This document shows, piece after piece, positions 14,782 through 23,421 of a stretch of DNA of 24,655 nt. The stretch comes from a virus. The translations under genes were made by a program, and so were the position numbers. The notes under the pieces were generated by a model that had not been told where the DNA came from, searched no databases, and was given only the letters and a program-made list of their open reading frames with translations. The stretch's first letter is position 1. Each line of letters starts with the position of its first letter. Where the stretch lies: the IMG/VR virus record IMGVR_UViG_3300009104_000119, positions 1 to 24,655 of that record; one strand, given 5' to 3'.

Positions 14782-14789
14782 TATTTATA
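14782..14789 (-). promoter_or_regulatory. late promoter box TATAAATA, gene 13
   Basis: Perfect late consensus on the minus strand, 27 bases before the gp13 ATG. It likely drives the whole neck-terminase block. Confidence 0.9.
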
Positions 14790-14795
14790 CCTTTT

Positions 14796-15056
14796 CTACT
14801 CTTGGAAAAAAGTTTTATGCTGTAGACGGTCAAGTTTCTCGTCAATCTTCTGAATTGAAGATAAAACTCTCTCAAAATCAGCCTCAATTTGTTCTCTTGT
14901 TGCGTAGTCTCTTGCTATCTCTTCACGAGTTTTATTGACAAGAATGTCTAATCTTTTTTGTTCTGATAATACATTACGAATCAAAAACCCAAGAGGGAGA
15001 ATGATTATAGTCATTATAAGATTCCATAAGATGTATGGTGATATCGTGATTTCCAT
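14796..15056 (-). CDS. small membrane-anchored coiled-coil protein
   Basis: 86 residues from the ATG at 15056. An upstream in-frame GTG (15077) would give 93, but the promoter box lies between them, so the ATG fits better. One N-terminal hydrophobic helix (residues about 9-28, LWNLIMTIIILPLGFLIR) is followed by a charged coiled coil (residues 30-80: REEIARDYATREQIEADFER, IQKIDEKLDRLQ). This is a type II-like topology with a cytoplasmic or periplasmic helix. Small proteins of this plan occur in many marine T4-like phages without known function. A lysis-related or membrane-tethering role is possible but unsupported. CATAAATA lies exactly 5 bases before the ATG, and no Shine-Dalgarno is visible. 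Confidence 0.7.
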   Translation of the reverse strand: MEITISPYILWNLIMTIIILPLGFLIRNVLSEQKRLDILVNKTREEIARDYATREQIEADFERVLSSIQKIDEKLDRLQHKTFFQE

Positions 15057-15061
15057 ATGGT

Positions 15062-15069
15062 TATTTATG
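15062..15069 (-). promoter_or_regulatory. late promoter box CATAAATA, membrane coiled-coil gene
   Basis: The minus strand reads CATAAATA, ACCAT, ATG. It lies just past the stop of the upstream oxygenase gene and has the same 5-base spacing as at gp20 and the 45-residue gene. Confidence 0.7.
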
Positions 15070-15073
15070 GAAT

Positions 15074-15754
15074 TCACTTCGTCAGTTCGCCGTCTTCTCC
15101 TATTTCAAACCTGTCCCAAGCTGTATCAATTTCTAAAGGTTCTGACCTTCCTCCAGTCAAATATCGGGTATCTGTATTAAATGCAACACTATATCTATCC
15201 TTATTGGTTGGATTAGGTTCTACCATATGCATCATAGCACTAGGGAACATAAGAAGGGTTCCTGATATTGGTCGAACTTCATGTGATTCACGCTGTCTCA
15301 TGTTATGTGGGAAGTCTGAAACAACTTTTGGGTCTGTATTAATTGCAACAAAATTTCCTTCGTCACCTTCAGCATGAATATATAATGCACCACTATACCA
15401 ACAACCGTTATGCAAATGTGGTTTATTCCACGCAAGGTGGTCATTAATATTAGCCCAAACATTACCAATAGTTACCTGAACTTTACTTAAATCAATACCA
15501 TGAAATCGAACAATATCTTGGTTCAATTTATCTTTCATGACTCTCAACATTTTATTCCATATTGGTCTCCGCTCAACCCCGTCATTAGATTGCCAGCCCG
15601 TATATGCGTTAGATATTCTCCGTCCTACGGGGTCTTTGGCTCTCATGCTATCCATATCTGCTTTCAGTTGTTGCAGATATGTCTCCGTCACTAAACCTTC
15701 TTCAAGTAAGTTATACTCAAACAAAAAGGTAGGAAATAATAATCTAACTGCCAT
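15074..15754 (-). CDS. 2OG-Fe(II) oxygenase (PF13759-like)
   Basis: 226 residues from ATG; the frame also has a TTG two codons earlier that overlaps the upstream stop. Members use Fe(II), O2 and 2-oxoglutarate to hydroxylate substrates. The NKPHLHNGCWYSGALYIHAE segment (His near 113/115) and GTLLMFPSAMMHMVEPN (His176), with RYSVAFNT (Arg187 for 2-oxoglutarate), form the pattern of the 2OG-FeII_Oxy_5 family often found in cyanophage and pelagiphage genomes. N-terminal LLFPTFLFEYNL is also typical. It ends the fibre-adjacent cassette, overlapping the GTG of the membrane protein frame by 2 bases. The substrate is unknown; fibre, repeat-protein or host targets are all possible. Confidence 0.85.
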   Translation of the reverse strand: MAVRLLFPTFLFEYNLLEEGLVTETYLQQLKADMDSMRAKDPVGRRISNAYTGWQSNDGVERRPIWNKMLRVMKDKLNQDIVRFHGIDLSKVQVTIGNVWANINDHLAWNKPHLHNGCWYSGALYIHAEGDEGNFVAINTDPKVVSDFPHNMRQRESHEVRPISGTLLMFPSAMMHMVEPNPTNKDRYSVAFNTDTRYLTGGRSEPLEIDTAWDRFEIGEDGELTK

Positions 15755-15756
15755 AA

Positions 15757-16695
15757 TCAATCTCTGTCTATATTTTCGTTAGACTCCGCACCGTCCCAGT
15801 TTAAATCTGTTTGACTTCTTTGCTTCTCAACGAAATCCATCTCTAACTGATTTTCGTCCTTTTCATGCATAGGACATTCAGGTGGAGGTGATTCTCCTTC
15901 TTTCATATGCTGAAAGAATTTACTTTTTGGATTCCATATCTTAGCCTGTCTATATCCACCAATATTTAATCGAGAGTTCGGAAGTCCAGTTTCTTCGTCC
16001 ACTAACTTTAAATCTCTTTGCCATTTTTGCATCGAATTCTCTGCTATTGCATGTTCATTAAACCAAGTCTCGGACTCCCCATAGAAGTATGTCGATGCCC
16101 ATTCTTCTCTTTTAAAAGGTACTACCTGTAGTATAGGAGTTCCAGTTGGAATTATGAACGAGTAATCTACCCTAGGATAGAATATGATTTGTCCGTTATC
16201 TACGCCAACATTAAATTTATCGGTATCGATAACCCCTTGCCATACTGCAAAGTATTTATTCTGAAATAAAAACGGGTCTATAAACAAAACAGAATAGCCC
16301 GGCGGAGTTGTCATATTCCAATGAGAAGATATTTTAAATGCATCTTTAACTGGTGAATCATCAATATATTGAATAGTATCTGCAAGTTGTGCCGAAGGGT
16401 GTGATTGTGATACTTCTGTTATACCTTCTTCGACTTGCATTTCCTGACTACCGTCTGGCCAATTCCAATCTACTCCGTTTCTTACTGGAATATCCTTAGT
16501 GCAAACAATGTAATAACCCATTGTTAACCAGTCTTGCATTGCTGGACAAGACCTAATAGTTTGAGTCAATCTACCTCTATGGTCAATTCTGACTTTCATC
16601 TTCTTCCACCATTCTGGCTGATAGTCTCTAGCTGCTATTGGTCTAAAGCTTGCATAAGACTCTTCGTCATAAGTTCTAAATTCAATCGTTGGCAT
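15757..16695 (-). CDS. conserved phage protein of unknown function (RDYQPEWWKKM type)
   Basis: 312 residues. N-terminal IEFRTYDEESYASFRPIAAR, then YQPEWWKKMKV, TIRSCPAMQDWLTMGYYIVC and PPGYSVLFIDPFLF. C-terminal half has FIIPTGTPILQVVPFKREEW and ends with charged residues. I recall proteins of this pattern in marine phages and cyanobacteria near oxygenases and glycosyltransferases, without assigned activity (perhaps DUF6065-like; not certain). No membrane segment or signal is evident. It overlaps the upstream P4H-like gene by 14 bases and its stop is 2 bases before the next ATG, so it is part of the same translational chain. That argues for a shared role with the two flanking oxygenases, which is inference. 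Confidence 0.7.
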   Translation of the reverse strand: MPTIEFRTYDEESYASFRPIAARDYQPEWWKKMKVRIDHRGRLTQTIRSCPAMQDWLTMGYYIVCTKDIPVRNGVDWNWPDGSQEMQVEEGITEVSQSHPSAQLADTIQYIDDSPVKDAFKISSHWNMTTPPGYSVLFIDPFLFQNKYFAVWQGVIDTDKFNVGVDNGQIIFYPRVDYSFIIPTGTPILQVVPFKREEWASTYFYGESETWFNEHAIAENSMQKWQRDLKLVDEETGLPNSRLNIGGYRQAKIWNPKSKFFQHMKEGESPPPECPMHEKDENQLEMDFVEKQRSQTDLNWDGAESNENIDRD

Positions 16696-17389
16696 ATCTT
16701 CTTTTCTCGTCTAATACTGCAATCTCATCTCCTCGTAATACGATTGACCGTCTGTCTAAGTATTTAGCTTTTTTATGAGGTGCCTCTGCACCGTGTGGTA
16801 TTCTTCCGTCAAACATTAATAATCTATTTGGAACAAAATCAACAGAACCAATTTCAAGGCGATCCATTTCTTTTAAAATCCCCATAGGAATAGTATCTTT
16901 ATAAAATCTTAATCTTCCACCAAAATTTGGGTTCCAAAAACTATTTGAGTAGTATAAAAAAGAAAGGCTCCATTCATCTTCTTGAGAAGCATCTGAATGA
17001 CATGTTCCATGTTGTCCATGTGTTTGAGAATTGCCACCCATATATTGAAACCTAACCCAATCAAAACCAAAATCAGTTCGGATTTTTCTATCTAACCACC
17101 TCATTAAAGGTTTATTTGGATTGTCTCCAGCTGGAGTGAAGTCTATCCCAGCAAAATAAGAACAACCCCATAATTGGTGATTTGGTAAACCACCTCTATT
17201 AGGAATGTTACCGTTTACTTGATTATTTTTAGACCAAGCAGTTCTTCTGTGTAATTCATCATCTACATTTTTCCACAATGAAGTTTCTAGATAATTATCT
17301 AGAACATAAACATTGTTCTCTAATGGAAAACTGTCCTGAATATAGAAAGGCTCGTCTATAAAATGGACATTGATATTATCCAGCGTCAT
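16682..17389 (-). CDS. prolyl-4-hydroxylase-like 2OG-Fe(II) oxygenase
   Basis: 235 residues from the ATG at 17389. An in-frame GTG at 17407 would give 241 and overlap the previous gene by 32 bases rather than 14. Double-stranded beta-helix motifs are clear: QYMGGNSQTHGQHGTCHSDA supplies the His-x-Asp pair (His137, Asp139 counted from the GTG), LSFLYYSNSFWNPNFGGRLR is the family core, and NRLLMFDGRIPHGAEAP supplies the distal His205, with Arg220 in RRSIVLRG for 2-oxoglutarate. All cofactor residues look intact. The P4H-like fold suggests protein hydroxylation, but some relatives act on other substrates. The neighbouring Pro-rich repeat proteins are candidate substrates. Confidence 0.88.
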   Translation of the reverse strand: MTLDNINVHFIDEPFYIQDSFPLENNVYVLDNYLETSLWKNVDDELHRRTAWSKNNQVNGNIPNRGGLPNHQLWGCSYFAGIDFTPAGDNPNKPLMRWLDRKIRTDFGFDWVRFQYMGGNSQTHGQHGTCHSDASQEDEWSLSFLYYSNSFWNPNFGGRLRFYKDTIPMGILKEMDRLEIGSVDFVPNRLLMFDGRIPHGAEAPHKKAKYLDRRSIVLRGDEIAVLDEKRRYAND

Positions 17390-17954
17390 TTGGTTGTAAC
17401 CCACCACTGCTTCTCAAATGAGAAGGTGGAGGCAGCTGCATTAAGTATTCCTCTAAAGGTTTAAGAGTATCTTCTCTTGTTATCGATATCTCTCTGAATA
17501 CTTCTTCAGCAACACAAGCCAATGCGTCTGTATATTCCAAAACCCTTCGGGCATTTGATCTGTGTGGATGCGCTGACCCTTCACGAGCAGCAATAGAAAC
17601 TTCTACTATATCATCAAAACCATACTGTTCGACTTGTTGATAAGTGTTTCTTCTAACCCCTTCTGCAACTCGACCAGCATATTGTTGATTTAAACTAACC
17701 CCACTTGGTGGTTCAGAATTTTCAATATAAGCTTCGATTGCGTCCTTTTCATTTTCAGATAAAGGAAGTTTTGCTTGTTCGTCAAGCTCTTTACCGTCTT
17801 CCCATTCTTCAACTTTGCATTCAATATCATCATATATTATAACTTGATAGTCAAATCCTAAGTCAGGAGCGTCAACACTTTCATGTCTCCACTCTAATCC
17901 ATTTGGTTTTCTTATAAAAAGATTTCCGTTTTCGCAGTAAACTAATGCATTCAT
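17376..17954 (-). CDS. unknown protein in the fibre-modification cassette
   Basis: 192 residues. MNALVYCENGNLFIRKPNGL starts a compact N-terminal strand-rich part. Residues about 60-80 are acidic, and SAHPHRSNARRVLEYTDALA, then CVAEEVFREI, forms a helical C-terminal part. The last 25 residues are Pro/Gly-rich. I do not recognise a family. The layout (beta N-terminus, ARRV-type helix near the C-terminus, beside fibre genes) faintly recalls tail-fibre assembly proteins, but I see no diagnostic motif. GGAG 7 bases before the ATG supports the start. Possible promoters are a CATAAATA match at 18009-18016 and a TATAAT 13 bases upstream, neither strong. Confidence 0.6.
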   Translation of the reverse strand: MNALVYCENGNLFIRKPNGLEWRHESVDAPDLGFDYQVIIYDDIECKVEEWEDGKELDEQAKLPLSENEKDAIEAYIENSEPPSGVSLNQQYAGRVAEGVRRNTYQQVEQYGFDDIVEVSIAAREGSAHPHRSNARRVLEYTDALACVAEEVFREISITREDTLKPLEEYLMQLPPPSHLRSSGGLQPNDAG

Positions 17955-17964
17955 ATTAACTCCA

Positions 17965-19593
17965 TTATACCTTTAACATTCTTTTATATGTTTCATATAC
18001 TTCTAACATATTTATGTGTTCACAATCCATGCCTTTTATCCATGGGCCACCTCTTGTATAGTGAACTGCATGGTGACTATTTAACATGGTTTTTTCATAT
18101 CCTTCGGTTGCAATTTTATCATGTGGTATCTTACTAATTTGATTAGTCCATTCAAACTGGTGTAAAAACTGACCACTTGCAGTATTAACTACTTCGGGTG
18201 TTAATTTCCTACAATCTTCATGACCATTATTAAATATCATCATACTAGACCACAATTTTTTAGGATATGAAACATTCTTTTCTCCACCCATTTTTGTCTC
18301 GTCATGCTCTTTAAAATCATATTGAACACATGCAATAGCATGATCAGGGTCTAAGAAATAAAATAAAGACATAGGTGAATATTTCCATATGTAGTCATCG
18401 TCTATAAAGAAACTAAATCCTTCATAGTTTTCTAAATATGGAATTAAGAATCTACTGTAAGTAAACTCTGTCGATTGATTTGCGTAGTCCCTATTATATT
18501 CGGGAATTTGGCTTATGTCAAGTTTCTTAACTTCTACTTTGTAATCATTAAAAAACTCTTGGCCATCGCCACCGCTTCTACATTTATCTATTGAATCGTG
18601 TATAGAATTCTCTGCAATTTTAAATATATCACTATGAGAAGAATCATAGCCAAGATAGATATTAACTGGTTTCTTTTTACATAATTTAGTTACTTTTTTA
18701 TTAAAATCATAAACATAATCTCTAAAATTTAACCCACCAACATTACTAGGAGACCATTCAATCTTACCGTCTCTAGTGTATATAGCTGTGAGTGAGTCTC
18801 CCTTTACTGTGTCTTTCCAATAATCTAAGATATCATCTAAAGTCATTGAGTCAATGTTAGGAAATAAATTTGTATAATCTGTAACTAAAATAGGAAGTTC
18901 AGGTATGTCTATTGTTTCAAATACCTTTGAACGAATCGAGCCGGGATGAATGCTTATCTTAGGTATAATATCGTGCTCTTCTCCATCGGCCCCAAGGTAT
19001 TTACCACCAGCTGCAGTATGTCCTTGTATGCATTGCCAGAGACCTTCTTTTTGTATATTATTAATCAACCAGTGTGCTTTTGCAGCGTGATAATATTGTG
19101 CTTGTAATGCATTTTCTTCGTCTATATTTAACTTATTACAATCAGGGTGGTCACTAACAGTTGATAACCATTGATACTCATCATCTGTATTTTTAAAATC
19201 CATAGAACCACCTTTTACAGGGTGGTCGGGTCTAGGTTCTTGAGAATATCCTAAATGAAGGTATCTATGATATTGTAATGAATTATGATGCAACTGTTGA
19301 TATCCCATCAACTTCCCAGCATCTATTAATTTTTTAACTTCTGACCATGGAACCATTCGTATCGGAGGTTGTTGTGAGACAACATACTCCATTATCTTAT
19401 AAGTTTCTGTCTCTTTATACTTGCCCGGCAGAACGGGTGCATCGTGGGGATTAATAAAACTTATAGAACCTAAGTTAAATTCCTGAACCTCACCGCGTGA
19501 CGGAGACCCGTGAGAATTTTTTACCTCATCGAGGTCTCTACGGAATGTGAATTTGCGGGCTTCCTCAAGTGTTTCTATCTTCACCATAGTCAT
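17965..19593 (-). CDS. glycosyltransferase-like protein with large N-terminal domain
   Basis: 542 residues in two parts. Residues about 308-525 resemble a GT8-type nucleotide-sugar transferase: KPVNIYLGYDSSHSDIFKIA, then FTYSRFLIPYLENYEGFSFF, a DxD-like IDDDYIW (Asp398-400) for metal/sugar nucleotide, WSSMMIFNNG, and C-terminal VHYTRGGPW. Residues 1-300 are a separate domain (RMVPWSEVKKLIDAGKLMGY, HHNSLQYHRYLHLGYSQEPR, ISIHPGSIRSKVFE) that I do not recognise. A HPGSxR motif gives a faint ParB-like impression only. It follows the two octapeptide-repeat proteins by 21 bases and precedes the P4H-like gene. The acceptor could be phage fibres, the repeat proteins, or host surface glycan. No Shine-Dalgarno is obvious, and CTAAATATAAT upstream may be promoter-like. 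Confidence 0.7.
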   Translation of the reverse strand: MTMVKIETLEEARKFTFRRDLDEVKNSHGSPSRGEVQEFNLGSISFINPHDAPVLPGKYKETETYKIMEYVVSQQPPIRMVPWSEVKKLIDAGKLMGYQQLHHNSLQYHRYLHLGYSQEPRPDHPVKGGSMDFKNTDDEYQWLSTVSDHPDCNKLNIDEENALQAQYYHAAKAHWLINNIQKEGLWQCIQGHTAAGGKYLGADGEEHDIIPKISIHPGSIRSKVFETIDIPELPILVTDYTNLFPNIDSMTLDDILDYWKDTVKGDSLTAIYTRDGKIEWSPSNVGGLNFRDYVYDFNKKVTKLCKKKPVNIYLGYDSSHSDIFKIAENSIHDSIDKCRSGGDGQEFFNDYKVEVKKLDISQIPEYNRDYANQSTEFTYSRFLIPYLENYEGFSFFIDDDYIWKYSPMSLFYFLDPDHAIACVQYDFKEHDETKMGGEKNVSYPKKLWSSMMIFNNGHEDCRKLTPEVVNTASGQFLHQFEWTNQISKIPHDKIATEGYEKTMLNSHHAVHYTRGGPWIKGMDCEHINMLEVYETYKRMLKV

Positions 19594-19614
19594 AATTATA
19601 TTTAGTGATTTACT

Positions 19615-20541
19615 TTAAGAGGTAATCGGAGTCGCAGGCCACTGTTGTTGTAATACGCCATCCCATCTTGGAACTGGTGTTCGACCAGCCCTTTGATAAG
19701 TGAATGGACTTCTATGATCATATGTTGTAGGAGTTTGACCTTGTCTAGCATAGGTAAACGGAGACCTATAATTATAAGTGAACGGGGTTTGTCCAGTTCT
19801 CTGATAAGTAAACGGAGACCTATGTTGATATGTATCAGGAGTTTGTCCAGTTCTCTGATAAGTAAATGGACTCCTATGGTCATAGGTATAAGGTGACCTA
19901 TGGTCATATATTACTGGTTGTCTTGAATCTCTAATATTAGGTTCTTGAATGTTCCTGATATTAGGTTCTTGTTGGTTCCTGATATTAGGTTCTTGTTGAT
20001 TTCTAATGTTAGGTTCTTGAGCTGACCTAATGTTAGGTTCTTGTGCATTAGAAGGACTTTGAGCATTCTTAATAGTCGGTTGTTGAGCAGACTTAATCGT
20101 AGGTTGTTGTGCCGCAACTGGATTCCTATAGGTAAACGGTGACCTATATTGATAAGTATTCGGCTGTCTTGCCGCATTTTGATAAGTAAACGGCGACCTA
20201 TGGTTATAGGTAAACGGTGACCTATGGTTATATGTGCCTGGCGACCTCCAAGTGTAGGTAAACGGCGACCTATGGTTATAGGTAAACGGTGACCTATGTT
20301 GATAAATGGTCGGTTGTCTTGCTTGTGCGATAAATGGTTGTCTCGCAGGTGCTTGATAAGTGGTCGGTTGCCTTGCCTGTGCAATAAAAGGTTGTCTCGC
20401 AGGTGCTTGATAAGTGGTCGGTTGCCTTGCCTGTGCAATAAATGGTTGTCTCGCAGGTGCTTGGTATATTACAGGCTGCCGTGCCTGTGCAATAAACGGC
20501 TGTCTTGCGTTTCCGATAAATGGTGATTGATAAAAAGGCAT
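19615..20541 (-). CDS. octapeptide-repeat protein 2 (Pro/Tyr/Arg-rich)
   Basis: 308 residues made almost wholly of about 33 units with consensus x-[HAQ]-R/Q-[SQE]-P-x-[TI]-[YR]-x, such as HRSPFTYN, ARQPFIAQ and QEPNIRN. Order: an ARQP block with alternating 8- and 10-residue units (1-75), an HRSPFTY block, an (A/Q)QEPNIR block near 155-200, then HRSPFTY alternating with GQTPxTY. Only the last 20 residues (WDGVLQQQWPATPITS) are unique. Repeats of this type occur in marine phage proteins near tail fibres; I know of no assigned function. It probably forms an extended, fibre-like or solenoid structure. Its ATG overlaps the upstream stop as TAATG with GGGGAG before it. The reading frame is chosen by motif, as other frames are also open. 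Confidence 0.8.
   Translation of the reverse strand: MPFYQSPFIGNARQPFIAQARQPVIYQAPARQPFIAQARQPTTYQAPARQPFIAQARQPTTYQAPARQPFIAQARQPTIYQHRSPFTYNHRSPFTYTWRSPGTYNHRSPFTYNHRSPFTYQNAARQPNTYQYRSPFTYRNPVAAQQPTIKSAQQPTIKNAQSPSNAQEPNIRSAQEPNIRNQQEPNIRNQQEPNIRNIQEPNIRDSRQPVIYDHRSPYTYDHRSPFTYQRTGQTPDTYQHRSPFTYQRTGQTPFTYNYRSPFTYARQGQTPTTYDHRSPFTYQRAGRTPVPRWDGVLQQQWPATPITS
19663..20532 (-). repeat. 24-base coding repeats in octapeptide-repeat protein 2
   Basis: DNA units of 24 or 30 bases encode the octapeptides. Many HRSPFTYN units are nearly identical at DNA level, which points to recent homogenisation or slippage rather than old divergence. Confidence 0.9.
20341..20502 (-). repeat. three tandem 54-base repeats
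   Basis: Units begin at 20341, 20395 and 20449, exactly 54 bases apart (plus-strand tctcgcaggtgcttg at each). Each encodes an 8- plus 10-residue pair (ARQPFIAQ, ARQPTTYQAP). The first two are almost identical; the third has diverged in its second half. Confidence 0.9.
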
Positions 20542-21488
20542 TATTCTTTCTCCCCGCCTGGCGGTTGTCCACTATAATATAGTGGAATCCTTGCTTGATA
20601 AGTAAACGGGTTCTGTGCATTATGCGTAAACGGATTCTGTTTACTCGCAGAATAGGTAAACGGGTTCTGTGCATTATGTGTAAACGGATTCTGTCTATTT
20701 CTACTATTCGGTTCCTGTCCTGACCTAATGTTAGGTTCCTGTCCTGACCTAATGTTAGGTTCTTGGAAATTCCTAATGACAGGTTGCTGACTTGACCTAA
20801 TGTTAGGTTCTTGAGCATTCGCTGGATAAGTAAACGGAGTCTGACTTGACCTAATGTTAGGTTCCTGTGCATTTACAGGATTTCTATATGTAAATGGAGA
20901 CCTGTGATTGTAAGTAAATGGAGACCTGTGATTGTAAGTAAACGGGTTCCTATATGTGAACGGAGACCTATGGTCATAAGTAAACGGCGACCTGTGATTG
21001 TAAGTTAAAGGACTTCTGTGGTTATAAGTAGTAGGACTTCTGTGGTCGTAAGTATACGGTGACCTATGGTCGTAAGTAAACGGACTTTGTTTACTCCTAC
21101 TATTCGGTTGTTGAATATTTCTTATGTTTGGTTCTTGAGCATTCGCAATATAAGGATAGGGATTTTGTCTATCCCTTATATTAGGTTCCTGTGCAGCTGC
21201 AATATAAGGATACGGTTGTTGTGCATTTCTTATATTAGGTTCTTGACCATTCGCGATATAAGGATAAGCATTTTGCCTATTTCTTATATTAGGTTCTTGA
21301 GCTGTTGCAATATATGGATAAGGGTTTTGAACTGCTTCTTGCCCAGACGCATCATTCCATGTCGCCGGGCCGGTTTTTGCATATATTTGATCAACAGCCT
21401 TCCAAGTAGACGCACCTGTCTTTACCCAAGCACCTTGAGTTGCGTTCCAACCTGTAGGGGTCTTAACCTTCTGATTACCTGATGCCAT
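20541..21488 (-). CDS. octapeptide-repeat protein 1 with N-terminal KTGxxTW module
   Basis: 315 residues. The N-terminal 55 residues hold two short related units, AWVKTGASTWKAVDQ and YAKTGPATWNDASG, a pattern seen in phage structural proteins and likely the anchor. Residues 58-300 are about 30 repeat units in three flavours: NPYPYIAN, AQEPNIRN and HRSPFTYN, with a NPFTHNAQ variant near the end. The last 15 residues (LYYSGQPPGGEKE) are unique. Composition is rich in Pro, Tyr, Asn and Arg, with no Cys. It looks like a virion appendage or adhesin-like protein, by context with the upstream fibre genes. GGTGAGG 6 bases before the ATG supports the start. Confidence 0.8.
   Translation of the reverse strand: MASGNQKVKTPTGWNATQGAWVKTGASTWKAVDQIYAKTGPATWNDASGQEAVQNPYPYIATAQEPNIRNRQNAYPYIANGQEPNIRNAQQPYPYIAAAQEPNIRDRQNPYPYIANAQEPNIRNIQQPNSRSKQSPFTYDHRSPYTYDHRSPTTYNHRSPLTYNHRSPFTYDHRSPFTYRNPFTYNHRSPFTYNHRSPFTYRNPVNAQEPNIRSSQTPFTYPANAQEPNIRSSQQPVIRNFQEPNIRSGQEPNIRSGQEPNSRNRQNPFTHNAQNPFTYSASKQNPFTHNAQNPFTYQARIPLYYSGQPPGGEKE
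20589..21317 (-). repeat. 24-base coding repeats in octapeptide-repeat protein 1
   Basis: 24-base units encode alternating PYPYIAN-, QEPNIRN- and HRSPFTYN-type octapeptides. Adjacent copies near 20720-20770 are identical over a full unit, and units are shared with the neighbouring repeat gene. Confidence 0.9.
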
Positions 21489-21511: not shown

Positions 21512-23134
21512 TTAAGAGTATAAAATCCACAAGTCACCAACGGCCCCATCTCCTCCTGTAGGTGCTGAAGTTGACTGATACACATTTCTTGCTGTCCCAC
21601 CACTATTTGTGGCATTTGTTATTGTCACCGCACCAACCGACAATGGAGCTACAGAAATAGTTAAACCTCCTGTTGAAGCACCCGTGTCTGTTGTGGTTCC
21701 TAATATGAAACTATCTGCAGATTCGTCCCAACCCATAAATCCGTTATTACCTGTTGACCCTCTTTCAAGAATCAAACCAAGGTCATTAGAGTTAGAACCT
21801 GTATTACCTGAACCAAGTTCGATTAATGCATCTTCAATAGTAGTATTAGTTGCACTATTAGTAACGGTTGCACCATTAACTGTTAAATTTCCTGATACTA
21901 TGACATCATCAAATGTTACATCGTCTGATGTGCCAACTGCCTGTCCGATACTGAACTGGCCACCTGAATAGGTAACACCTGTTCCAGCACTTAAATGTGC
22001 TCTTACTTCTGCAGCACTCGGGCCTGTATATGTGAATACACCTGTTGAATTATTATATGCAAGTGAACCATCTCCACCAGCATCTGTGACTGATACATCT
22101 GCTCTTACTAAAGCTTCTGTGTATTGTGTTATTGTAGTTGCAAGTGTTAAAGTTCCCGCTGCATCATCATATGTTGCTGTTATTCCTGTTCCAGCAGTTA
22201 CCAAAGCAGCGACTCTATCGTCTACTCTTTCTGATGTATGGTAAAGGTTACTTGAACCTTCTGATAATGCATCTGTGTCTGCAAGAACAGTTCCACCTAA
22301 TGAAGTTGCAGAACCAGCGATTGTTATACTTGAATTTGAAAGTTTTGAATTTGAGATAGAACCTGCCAACATGGCATCTGTTATACCTAATGCTTTAACT
22401 CGAACTGCATCTGAACTTAATTCTACTGAACTTCCGTCTACACCTACTGCAAGAACACCACTTGACGCTGCAAGTCCGTTTCCTGCTATTGCTGTAACTA
22501 CATCTGCTATTGCTTCTTTCTTACTTGAGTTATCTGTTGCATCTACTATTGCAAAACTGTCAGCTGCAACATCTACTGTAGCTGCTGTTAATTCGTTTAA
22601 GTCTAGTGCTAATGATACTGCACCACTTGTTCCACCACCTGATAAACCGTCACCTGCTGTGACTCCTGTTAAATCTGCAGTTGTGGATAAAACACCATTT
22701 GTTGCAGTTATGTTTGTACCTGCCATTGCTGTAGCAAGGTCTGCGATTGATTCTTTTCTCGAACCGTTACTGTCGTTTGCATCAATAATTGCAATACTAT
22801 CGTTTGCAACATCTACTGAAGCTGCTGTTAATTCACTTAAGTCTAATGCAAGTGTGGCATCACCTGATGTCGCACCACCTGAAAGACCGTCTCCAGCAAC
22901 AACACTTGATATGTCACCTGTTTCTGCATCTCTTGTGATTGTTAGGGTTCCGGCTCCATCATTATATGATAATGATATACCCGAACCAGCTGTCATTAAA
23001 GTGTTTACTTGGTCATCGATTGCTTCTAATGCAGCGGTTCCAAATGCAGCTGCAGTTAAGTCTCCTGAACTGTCAATTACTTCGGTTGCACCTACATTCA
23101 GCCCGTTTTTTATTCTAAAATTCTGCGCTGCCAT
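21512..23134 (-). CDS. tail fibre-like structural protein with duplicated modules
   Basis: 540 residues. The N-terminal NFRIKNGLNVGATEVIDSSG is the attachment-type start seen in marine T4-like fibres. Residues 75-151 and 155-230 are a tandem duplication of about 80 residues (AGDGLSGG, LALDLSELTAASVDVANDS, ESIADLATA). A second motif, TAGSGISLSYNDGAGTLTIT near 48, recurs as TAGTGITATYDDAAGTLTLA near 318. Next comes VTFDDVIVSGNLTVNGATVT with DALIELGSGNTG, a module common in marine phage fibres. The C-terminus GDGAVGDLWILYS is a typical fibre ending. Ser/Thr/Gly/Ala-rich with almost no Cys. GGAGGAAC about 6 bases before the ATG; its ATG overlaps the mini-fibre stop. Confidence 0.85.
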   Translation of the reverse strand: MAAQNFRIKNGLNVGATEVIDSSGDLTAAAFGTAALEAIDDQVNTLMTAGSGISLSYNDGAGTLTITRDAETGDISSVVAGDGLSGGATSGDATLALDLSELTAASVDVANDSIAIIDANDSNGSRKESIADLATAMAGTNITATNGVLSTTADLTGVTAGDGLSGGGTSGAVSLALDLNELTAATVDVAADSFAIVDATDNSSKKEAIADVVTAIAGNGLAASSGVLAVGVDGSSVELSSDAVRVKALGITDAMLAGSISNSKLSNSSITIAGSATSLGGTVLADTDALSEGSSNLYHTSERVDDRVAALVTAGTGITATYDDAAGTLTLATTITQYTEALVRADVSVTDAGGDGSLAYNNSTGVFTYTGPSAAEVRAHLSAGTGVTYSGGQFSIGQAVGTSDDVTFDDVIVSGNLTVNGATVTNSATNTTIEDALIELGSGNTGSNSNDLGLILERGSTGNNGFMGWDESADSFILGTTTDTGASTGGLTISVAPLSVGAVTITNATNSGGTARNVYQSTSAPTGGDGAVGDLWILYS

Positions 23135-23367
23135 TAAAAGGTTCCTCCGTCAATAGTAGCACCCCGAATGGTCTTCGCCTCTGATGCATCCGCTAGATGG
23201 GTGTCAACTCTAGTAGTCGTGAAGTAAAGTTTAGTAGAACCTTCTGATATGTCATCAGTATCCAAGGTAGAGACGGCAGAAGATACTACCTTCCCACTTG
23301 CATTGATGACTTCGGTTGATCCACTATTATATCCATACTCTGATCTGAAATTTTTTGTGTCTGCCAT
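23134..23367 (-). CDS. 77-residue mini-fibre, paralogue of fibre modules
   Basis: NFRSEYGYNSGSTEVINASG matches the start of the next protein (NFRIKNGLNVGATEVIDSSG). DTDDISEGSTKLYFTTTRVD matches that protein's DTDALSEGSSNLYHTSERVD near residue 290. The gene is thus an N-terminal fibre domain joined to one downstream module, then ending ATIDGGTF. It is either a genuine short collar/adaptor or the stump of a fibre split by deletion or frameshift. A late box lies 46 bases upstream and its stop overlaps the next start (TAATG), so it is expressed and coupled. No good Shine-Dalgarno is visible at its ATG (AGGG is 17 bases off). Confidence 0.7.
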   Translation of the reverse strand: MADTKNFRSEYGYNSGSTEVINASGKVVSSAVSTLDTDDISEGSTKLYFTTTRVDTHLADASEAKTIRGATIDGGTF

Positions 23368-23413: not shown

Positions 23414-23421
23414 TATTTATA
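23414..23421 (-). promoter_or_regulatory. late promoter box TATAAATA, fibre operon
   Basis: Perfect late consensus on the minus strand, 46 bases before the mini-fibre ATG and 25 bases past the preceding terminator. It likely drives the mini-fibre, fibre and repeat-protein genes. Confidence 0.88.

Follow-up and report, generated by a model that had tools for sequence, protein, structure and literature searches.

The best precedent for the gene system described here is the prolyl 4-hydroxylase (P4H) of the chlorovirus PBCV-1, whose substrates are repeats of the PAPK type. Oxygenase genes placed next to fibre genes are a general habit of the Kyanoviridae, joined by halogenases in cyanophages. 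For the glycosyltransferase family 8 (GT8) class of pelagimyophages, host lipopolysaccharide (LPS) has been proposed as the target, within a variable host-recognition cluster (PMC7029224). Searches of a literature library on hydroxylation or glycosylation of phage fibres returned no match there. Here we analyzed a 24.7-kb viral contig (IMG/VR record IMGVR_UViG_3300009104_000119, positions 1 to 24,655, hereafter the window) from a marine T4-like phage, in which two genes for Pro/Tyr repeat proteins are followed by a cassette encoding a GT8-like glycosyltransferase, two 2-oxoglutarate (2OG)-Fe(II) oxygenases and two proteins of unknown function.

The explanation towards which we lean, with limited confidence, is that of a late appendage operon in which dedicated oxygenases mature beta-like fibres of Pro/Tyr repeats, with glycosylation added in most lineages. 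A preliminary description of the window had suggested that the phage modifies its own repeat appendages. The comparison with relatives bears out that enzymes and repeats are passed on together as a single late block; the repeats stay putative substrates of these enzymes.

Repeat proteins and enzymes of the cassette

The following genes make up the repeat pair and the enzyme cassette:

20541..21488, minus strand: REP1, repeat protein of 315 residues, with an N-terminal KTPTGW-type region followed by 30 Pro-centred units (AQEPNIRN, NPYPYIAN, HRSPFTYN)
19615..20541, minus strand: REP2, repeat protein of 308 residues, with 30 Pro-centred units (HRSPFTYN, ARQPFIAQ, QQEPNIRN) and the C-terminal RWDG..QWPATPITS
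17965..19593, minus strand: GT542, GT8-like protein of 542 residues, with a C-terminal GT-A domain and an N-terminal domain without assigned identity
17376..17954, minus strand: U192, 192-residue protein of unknown function, with a small beta N-domain and a helical bundle (AlphaFold2)
16682..17407, minus strand: P4H241, prolyl-4-hydroxylase-like 2OG-Fe(II) oxygenase (Pfam 2OG-FeII_Oxy_3, E 2.5e-7)
15757..16695, minus strand: U312, 312-residue protein of unknown function (PHROG 7084, phrog_7084, E 9.2e-34)
15074..15760, minus strand: OX228, second 2OG-Fe(II) oxygenase (Pfam 2OG-FeII_Oxy_5, E 1.2e-16)

REP1 and REP2 thus hold the roughly 60 Pro-centred octapeptides that the preliminary description had attributed to two adjacent proteins. 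Successive prolines are exactly 8 residues apart in 24 of 38 gaps of one protein and 23 of 41 of the other. In a set of 170 distinct repeat proteins the gaps are 8, 6, 10, 12, 14, 16 and so on, and 92% of them are even, against 47% ± 0.6% in shuffled sequences. This difference, and the return of the architecture in numerous further contigs, show that the regularity is not due to chance. In the main repeat type the positional identity autocorrelation rises at even lags and stays near baseline at odd lags. Of the Tyr and Phe residues, 95% stand at an odd distance from the nearest Pro. At the same position of the block we found three alternative repeat types preceded by the same kind of N-terminal KTP-GW region, namely RPTSYEVTIP (related loci L239-L265 and L384-L392), RRRPVQQSYQYHNRVP (L266-L270, proteins of about 1380 residues) and RYPANARG (L336, L358 and L401). 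Even Pro spacing reaches 88-94% in these alternative types, against about 47%, and across repeat types 81-98% of the Tyr/Phe residues lie at odd offsets, against about 57%. Taken protein by protein, even spacing amounts to 75-95% compared with 49% ± 10% in 891 control proteins, those controls that exceed 75% being repeat proteins too.

Such a two-residue register would be that of an extended, beta-like chain with the prolines on one face and the aromatic residues on the other. The three-residue Pro spacing of extensin and collagen, with its polyproline II or triple-helix conformation, was not found. The analogy with extensin drawn in the preliminary description, and likewise that with collagen, consequently fails as a parallel of fold, since Pro spacing follows a two-residue and not a three-residue register. 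Searches of the repeat proteins (tblastn, limited by low-complexity filtering) and of their N-terminal anchor (tblastn) against named phages gave no match, and a direct search of the repeats against the PDB gave one match at chance level and nothing better. When parts of HTVC008M, Melnitz, Mosig, Syn9, P-SSM2, P-TIM40 and S-CAM1 were scanned for proteins with evenly spaced Pro, the top value was 0.65.

Upstream of the two REP genes, about 6-8 kb away, some relatives encode one or two extra repeat proteins (L003:2321-4153 and similar loci), which brings the number to three or four per phage. In others the end of REP1 is formed by poly-Gly and a domain of the Hint/intein type (PF14890, E 2.5e-7; PF01079), as in L049:10001-12100, L075:2505-3908, L027, L030, L032, L034, L044, L045, L055, L056, L219 and L402; the REP1 of the window is without it. 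Ends of this kind hint that the fibre protein is self-cleaved or spliced.

Both oxygenases recognized in the preliminary description were confirmed. P4H241 matches the Pfam family 2OG-FeII_Oxy_3 (PF13640) with 32 bits for a cut-off of 27. Its residues H137-x-D139, H205 and R219-x-S221, the intact His-x-Asp/His/Arg set noted before, are invariant in 31 aligned homologues, and the equivalent residues are still invariant in a 17-homologue alignment that includes the two most divergent members. Profile comparison with solved prolyl hydroxylases gave E values from 3.6e-4 to 0.05, among them the 'Prolyl 4-hydroxylase subunit alpha' of PDB 6t8m (E 0.0013 and 3.6e-4) and 6ey1 (E 0.015). P4H241 is P4H-like in that its nearest solved relatives are prolyl hydroxylases, and it is predicted to be a peptidyl-proline hydroxylase. 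OX228 matches 2OG-FeII_Oxy_5 (PF13759) with 61 bits for a cut-off of 27 and PDB 3bvc with an E value of 3.1e-13. Its residues H115-x-H117, H178 and R189-x-S191 are invariant in aligned homologues and correspond to the H-x-H ... H ... R-x-S pattern common to 3bvc and 2rg4.

The assignment of GT542 to a GT8-like class was upheld by its homologues and by its predicted structure. The window protein itself does not match Pfam Glyco_transf_8, which 18 of 29 homologues do (best E value 2.5e-5). An AlphaFold2 model (predicted local distance difference test score, pLDDT, of 85) was compared by Foldseek, and the C-terminal part retrieved LgtC, GlyE, LARGE1 and glycogenin, the GT8-type matches having E values of 1e-5 to 1e-3. 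A DxD motif (D398-x-D400) and the sequence HYTRGGPW (511-518), which resembles HxxGxxKPW, are invariant among homologues. The C-terminal domain has a GT-A fold of the GT8 type in the model and is a predicted glycosyltransferase. Glycosylation of tyrosine, for which the preliminary description cited GT8 glycogenin, is not supported. The N-terminal part of about 300 residues was considered as ParB-like, and this was dropped as no PDB match was found.

U192 is present in 84 related loci. Its AlphaFold2 model (pLDDT 92) gave nothing significant in a Foldseek search apart from weak matches to uncharacterised phage proteins, and sequence searches gave no Pfam match and no tblastn match in named phages. 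An identity as a Pfam tail-fibre assembly or chaperone protein (PF16778, PF02413) found no support; U192 is possibly a fibre-assembly factor. U312 is kept in every complete cassette and is related to hypothetical halovirus proteins, with tblastn matches to 50 phage records, mostly of Halorubrum and Haloarcula viruses. We dropped a dUTPase- or cupin-like identity for U312 (best PDB match E 0.84; dUTPase in one of 34 members, E 0.26).

Linkage of cassette and repeats across relatives

Relatives of the repeat proteins occur in at least 80 viral contigs. Related loci were collected either through the repeat protein or independently through gp13, P4H or U192. Nearly all of the 80 loci picked by the repeat protein hold every enzyme in one order, and when nothing but gp13, P4H or U192 served to pick the loci, the order was again REP-REP-GT-U192-P4H-U312-OX-s93-gp13. 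The nearest upstream gene encodes a Pro/Tyr repeat protein in 225 of the 229 cassette loci that have an upstream gene on the contig, a count that includes overlapping loci of the same contigs. Two of the other four have the repeat gene behind an inserted Gcw_chp-type gene (L250 and L252) and the last two are one contig (L200/L312). A Pro/Tyr repeat protein was found in none of 55 sister loci that lack the cassette and have at least 2 kb of upstream genes. Co-occurrence of repeat and enzyme genes, proposed in the preliminary description as a check on the substrate idea, is therefore clear from these counts (225 of 229 and two more behind the insert, against 0 of 55). In the manner of PBCV-1, a P4H and a Pro-rich repeat protein are encoded by one virus, here in one operon. 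The inserted gene of L250 (2002-2604) and L252 encodes an outer-membrane-like protein of the Gcw_chp family (PF09694) and lies between the repeat gene and U192.

P4H, U192, U312 and OX persist through all changes of repeat type. The GT is absent from the lineages with RPTSYEVTIP repeats. These phages have a cytidylyltransferase-like/adenosine 5'-phosphosulfate (APS)-kinase-like protein between P4H and U312 (L230:1272-2057), and in L264 (10848-11279) the nucleotidyltransferase part stands there alone. Since the oxygenases persist through the rewrites and the GT does not, the pair of oxygenases and Pro/Tyr repeat fibre is, as far as gene content tells, the core of the system, and decoration is an optional step. 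The two-step scheme of the preliminary description, hydroxylation and then glycosylation, is thus not general because the GT is dispensable, being absent from the RPTSYEVTIP lineages and from L200.

Grouped at 97% identity of gp13, the carriers of the cassette, uncultivated marine T4-like phages, make up 88 lineages, and all but one of the lineages whose contig covers the upstream region encode a Pro/Tyr repeat protein there. Most of the non-carriers interspersed with them on the gp13 tree are contigs whose sequence begins only below the cassette. L222 truly lacks it, having upstream a Gly-rich protein and oxygenase-like genes of a different kind.

Probable late transcription unit and phage identity

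On the minus strand the gene order is fib540, REP1, REP2, GT542, U192, P4H241, U312, OX228, s93 and gp13. From REP1 to OX228 (15074-21488) the junctions are overlaps or gaps of at most 21 bases, as the earlier figure of about 20 bases or less on one strand had it, and the gap between fib540 and REP1 is 23 bases. The remaining features of the block are:

23414..23421, minus strand: T4-type late promoter motif TATAAATA, at the start of the probable late unit that holds the fibre, repeat and enzyme genes
21512..23134, minus strand: fib540, fibre-like structural protein of 540 residues (PHROG 697 structural protein, phrog_697, E 1.2e-17), directly upstream of the repeat genes
14796..15077, minus strand: s93, small membrane-anchor-like protein of 93 residues (PHROG 462, phrog_462, E 1.2e-7), last gene of the block
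14782..14789, minus strand: the following late promoter motif of T4 type, placed 28 bases ahead of gp13 and marking the end of the block

The motif TATAAATA occurs seven times in the window without mismatch, in every case on the minus (coding) strand; 2.0 copies were expected, and none of 100 shuffles reached seven. One copy precedes the short gene at 23367 and the following one precedes gp13; an exact-match scan of the window found no copy between these two. Because the motifs bracket the block and none lies within it, the fibre and enzyme genes probably form one late unit. Among 59 related lineages the gp13 motif is at the same position in 34, and the span from the repeat genes to s93 is without a sense late motif in 46; the motifs inside the span of the other 13 would be about the number expected by chance. 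The flanking members are kept as well, the fib540 family in 81 related loci and s93 in 79.

The T4 structural gene set, its order and the late promoters identify the window phage as a T4-like marine myovirus (Kyanoviridae-like). Its gp13 is 51% identical to that of Pelagibacter phage HTVC008M and 49% to that of Methylophilales phage Melnitz, and DNA megablast of the region against phages matched nothing. Four cassette loci found in public metagenome-assembled genomes (L400, L401, L402 and L399) were binned with Flavobacteriales/Flavobacteriaceae, Sphingobacteriales and, in one case, Synechococcus. Bacteroidota are possible hosts of the cassette phages, the binning of phage contigs being unreliable.

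Proposed explanation and comparison with known systems

Building on the repeats and their two-residue periodicity, the intact active-site motifs, the gene order, the linkage across rewrites and the bracketing late motifs, all of them features of the sequence, we propose that the operon would make long Pro/Tyr repeat proteins of beta-strand-like build, one or two in number. These are probably components of fibres or whiskers in the virion, anchored by their non-repeat ends. P4H241 and OX228 would hydroxylate residues of the repeats, Pro being the most likely target of P4H241, with U192 and U312 as putative helper proteins of the maturation set. In most lineages the GT8-like enzyme would add a sugar to the fibre, and the modification may tune stiffness or receptor contact. 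A bolder version, which we advance tentatively and regard as rather doubtful, is that the oxygenases hydroxylate and the linked GT8 (in most lineages) glycosylates the exposed Pro face of beta two-residue-repeat fibres, with the motif free to change within the register and the GT swapped in one lineage for a kinase/nucleotidyltransferase. This would be a non-helical counterpart of collagen and extensin maturation.

Several observations weigh against oxygenase maturation of the repeats. Pro peptides are hydroxylated in vitro by the P4H of PBCV-1, but no hydroxyproline was detected in its virions (PMC7019647). The two-residue rule means that the repeats are not collagen- or extensin-like substrates, so that the analogy of P4H241 to enzymes acting on those is loose. 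OX-type oxygenases (2OG-FeII_Oxy_5) occur in many cyanophages and pelagiphages without Pro/Tyr repeats, and the survey by which the preliminary description could have been refuted therefore goes against it as regards the second oxygenase. L200 (contig IMGVR_UViG_3300020374_000097) has U192-P4H-U312-OX with neither GT nor repeat gene beside them, and carries baseplate gp53 and a 503-residue protein directly upstream of U192. Finally, the linkage could reflect shared descent. Since the carriers amount, on the gp13 tree, to what is essentially a single clade, the near-perfect co-occurrence does not stand for hundreds of independent observations; the independent evidence comes from a small number of repeat rewrites and from L200 as the sole exception.

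The oxygenases and the GT could instead act on the host, on surface polysaccharide or other targets, and adjacency to the fibre would then come from a host-recognition region that collects such genes. We consider this unlikely. It would fit the GT8 of the pelagimyophage host-recognition cluster, ascribed to host LPS modification (PMC7029224), the oxygenases and tryptophan halogenases that cyanophages carry after their fibre genes, and the 109 phage records with OX-type enzymes. The pelagimyophage cluster is described as hypervariable, however; in the present clade the order of the five genes never varies, even though the proteins diverge to about 42-47% identity. In addition, P4H241, U192 and GT542 give weak matches or none by tblastn and profile searches of sister and named phages, and the enzymes stay with the repeat gene when its motif changes.

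That the target is another virion protein of the block, for example fib540, and the repeat protein a mere neighbour, seems to us less probable still. In almost every locus the repeat genes have a gene of the fib540 family immediately upstream, and L200 keeps its oxygenases without an adjoining repeat gene, but fib540-like genes are common in sister phages that lack the cassette, which repeat proteins are not, and among the products of the unit it is the repeats that are Pro-rich. We give the least credit to the idea that the GT alone acts on the repeats, or that these are unmodified, and that the oxygenases serve an unrelated general function. GT542 always adjoins the repeat gene, both are absent from L200, and the GT is missing with the RPTSYEVTIP type while the other four genes persist in all cases; yet the oxygenases and both helper genes are common to all repeat types, and a P4H-like fold with a Pro-rich neighbour makes a natural enzyme-substrate pair.

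If dedicated maturation of the repeat fibres is correct, phages finish their own appendages post-translationally, a step so far sparsely documented in viruses, and the operon would be a compact bacterial-virus source of Pro-hydroxylated and possibly glycosylated fibrous protein. It would also supply a substrate hypothesis for the many 2OG-Fe(II) oxygenases and GT8 enzymes encoded near marine phage fibre genes, which as a rule appear in lists of auxiliary metabolic genes. For finding similar fibres, the two-residue register itself offers a simple sequence test.

Among known systems, cyanophages and pelagiphages (Syn9, P-TIM40, S-CAM1, HTVC008M and Mosig; Kyanoviridae) resemble the window in having several 2OG-Fe(II) oxygenases beside tail-fibre genes. 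Their clusters differ in oxygenase set and gene order and, in cyanophages, include halogenases; the regions read in these five phages hold no evenly spaced Pro/Tyr repeat protein, no U192 and no GT542. In Syn9 (L403:12966-16071) and P-TIM40 (L405:11772-14868) paired tryptophan halogenases and several 2OG oxygenases follow the tail-fibre assembly genes, possibly a parallel appendage-modification cluster. The pelagimyophage GT8 shares the GT8-like fold, and the Mosig enzyme is a direct homologue of GT542 (33% identity) that sits with methyl- and sulfotransferases and not beside a repeat protein. Like plant extensin, collagen and Dictyostelium Skp1, the window combines short Pro repeats with P4H-like and GT functions; unlike in extensin and collagen, the spacing of Pro and the placement of Tyr in the phage repeats obey a beta-like rule of two residues, and the GT is dispensable. 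PBCV-1 also has a capsid glycosyltransferase, but it is a virus of eukaryotic algae whose P4H does not share an operon with its substrate, whereas the phage brings a P4H-like enzyme, a second oxygenase and a GT together in one late block with their candidate substrate.

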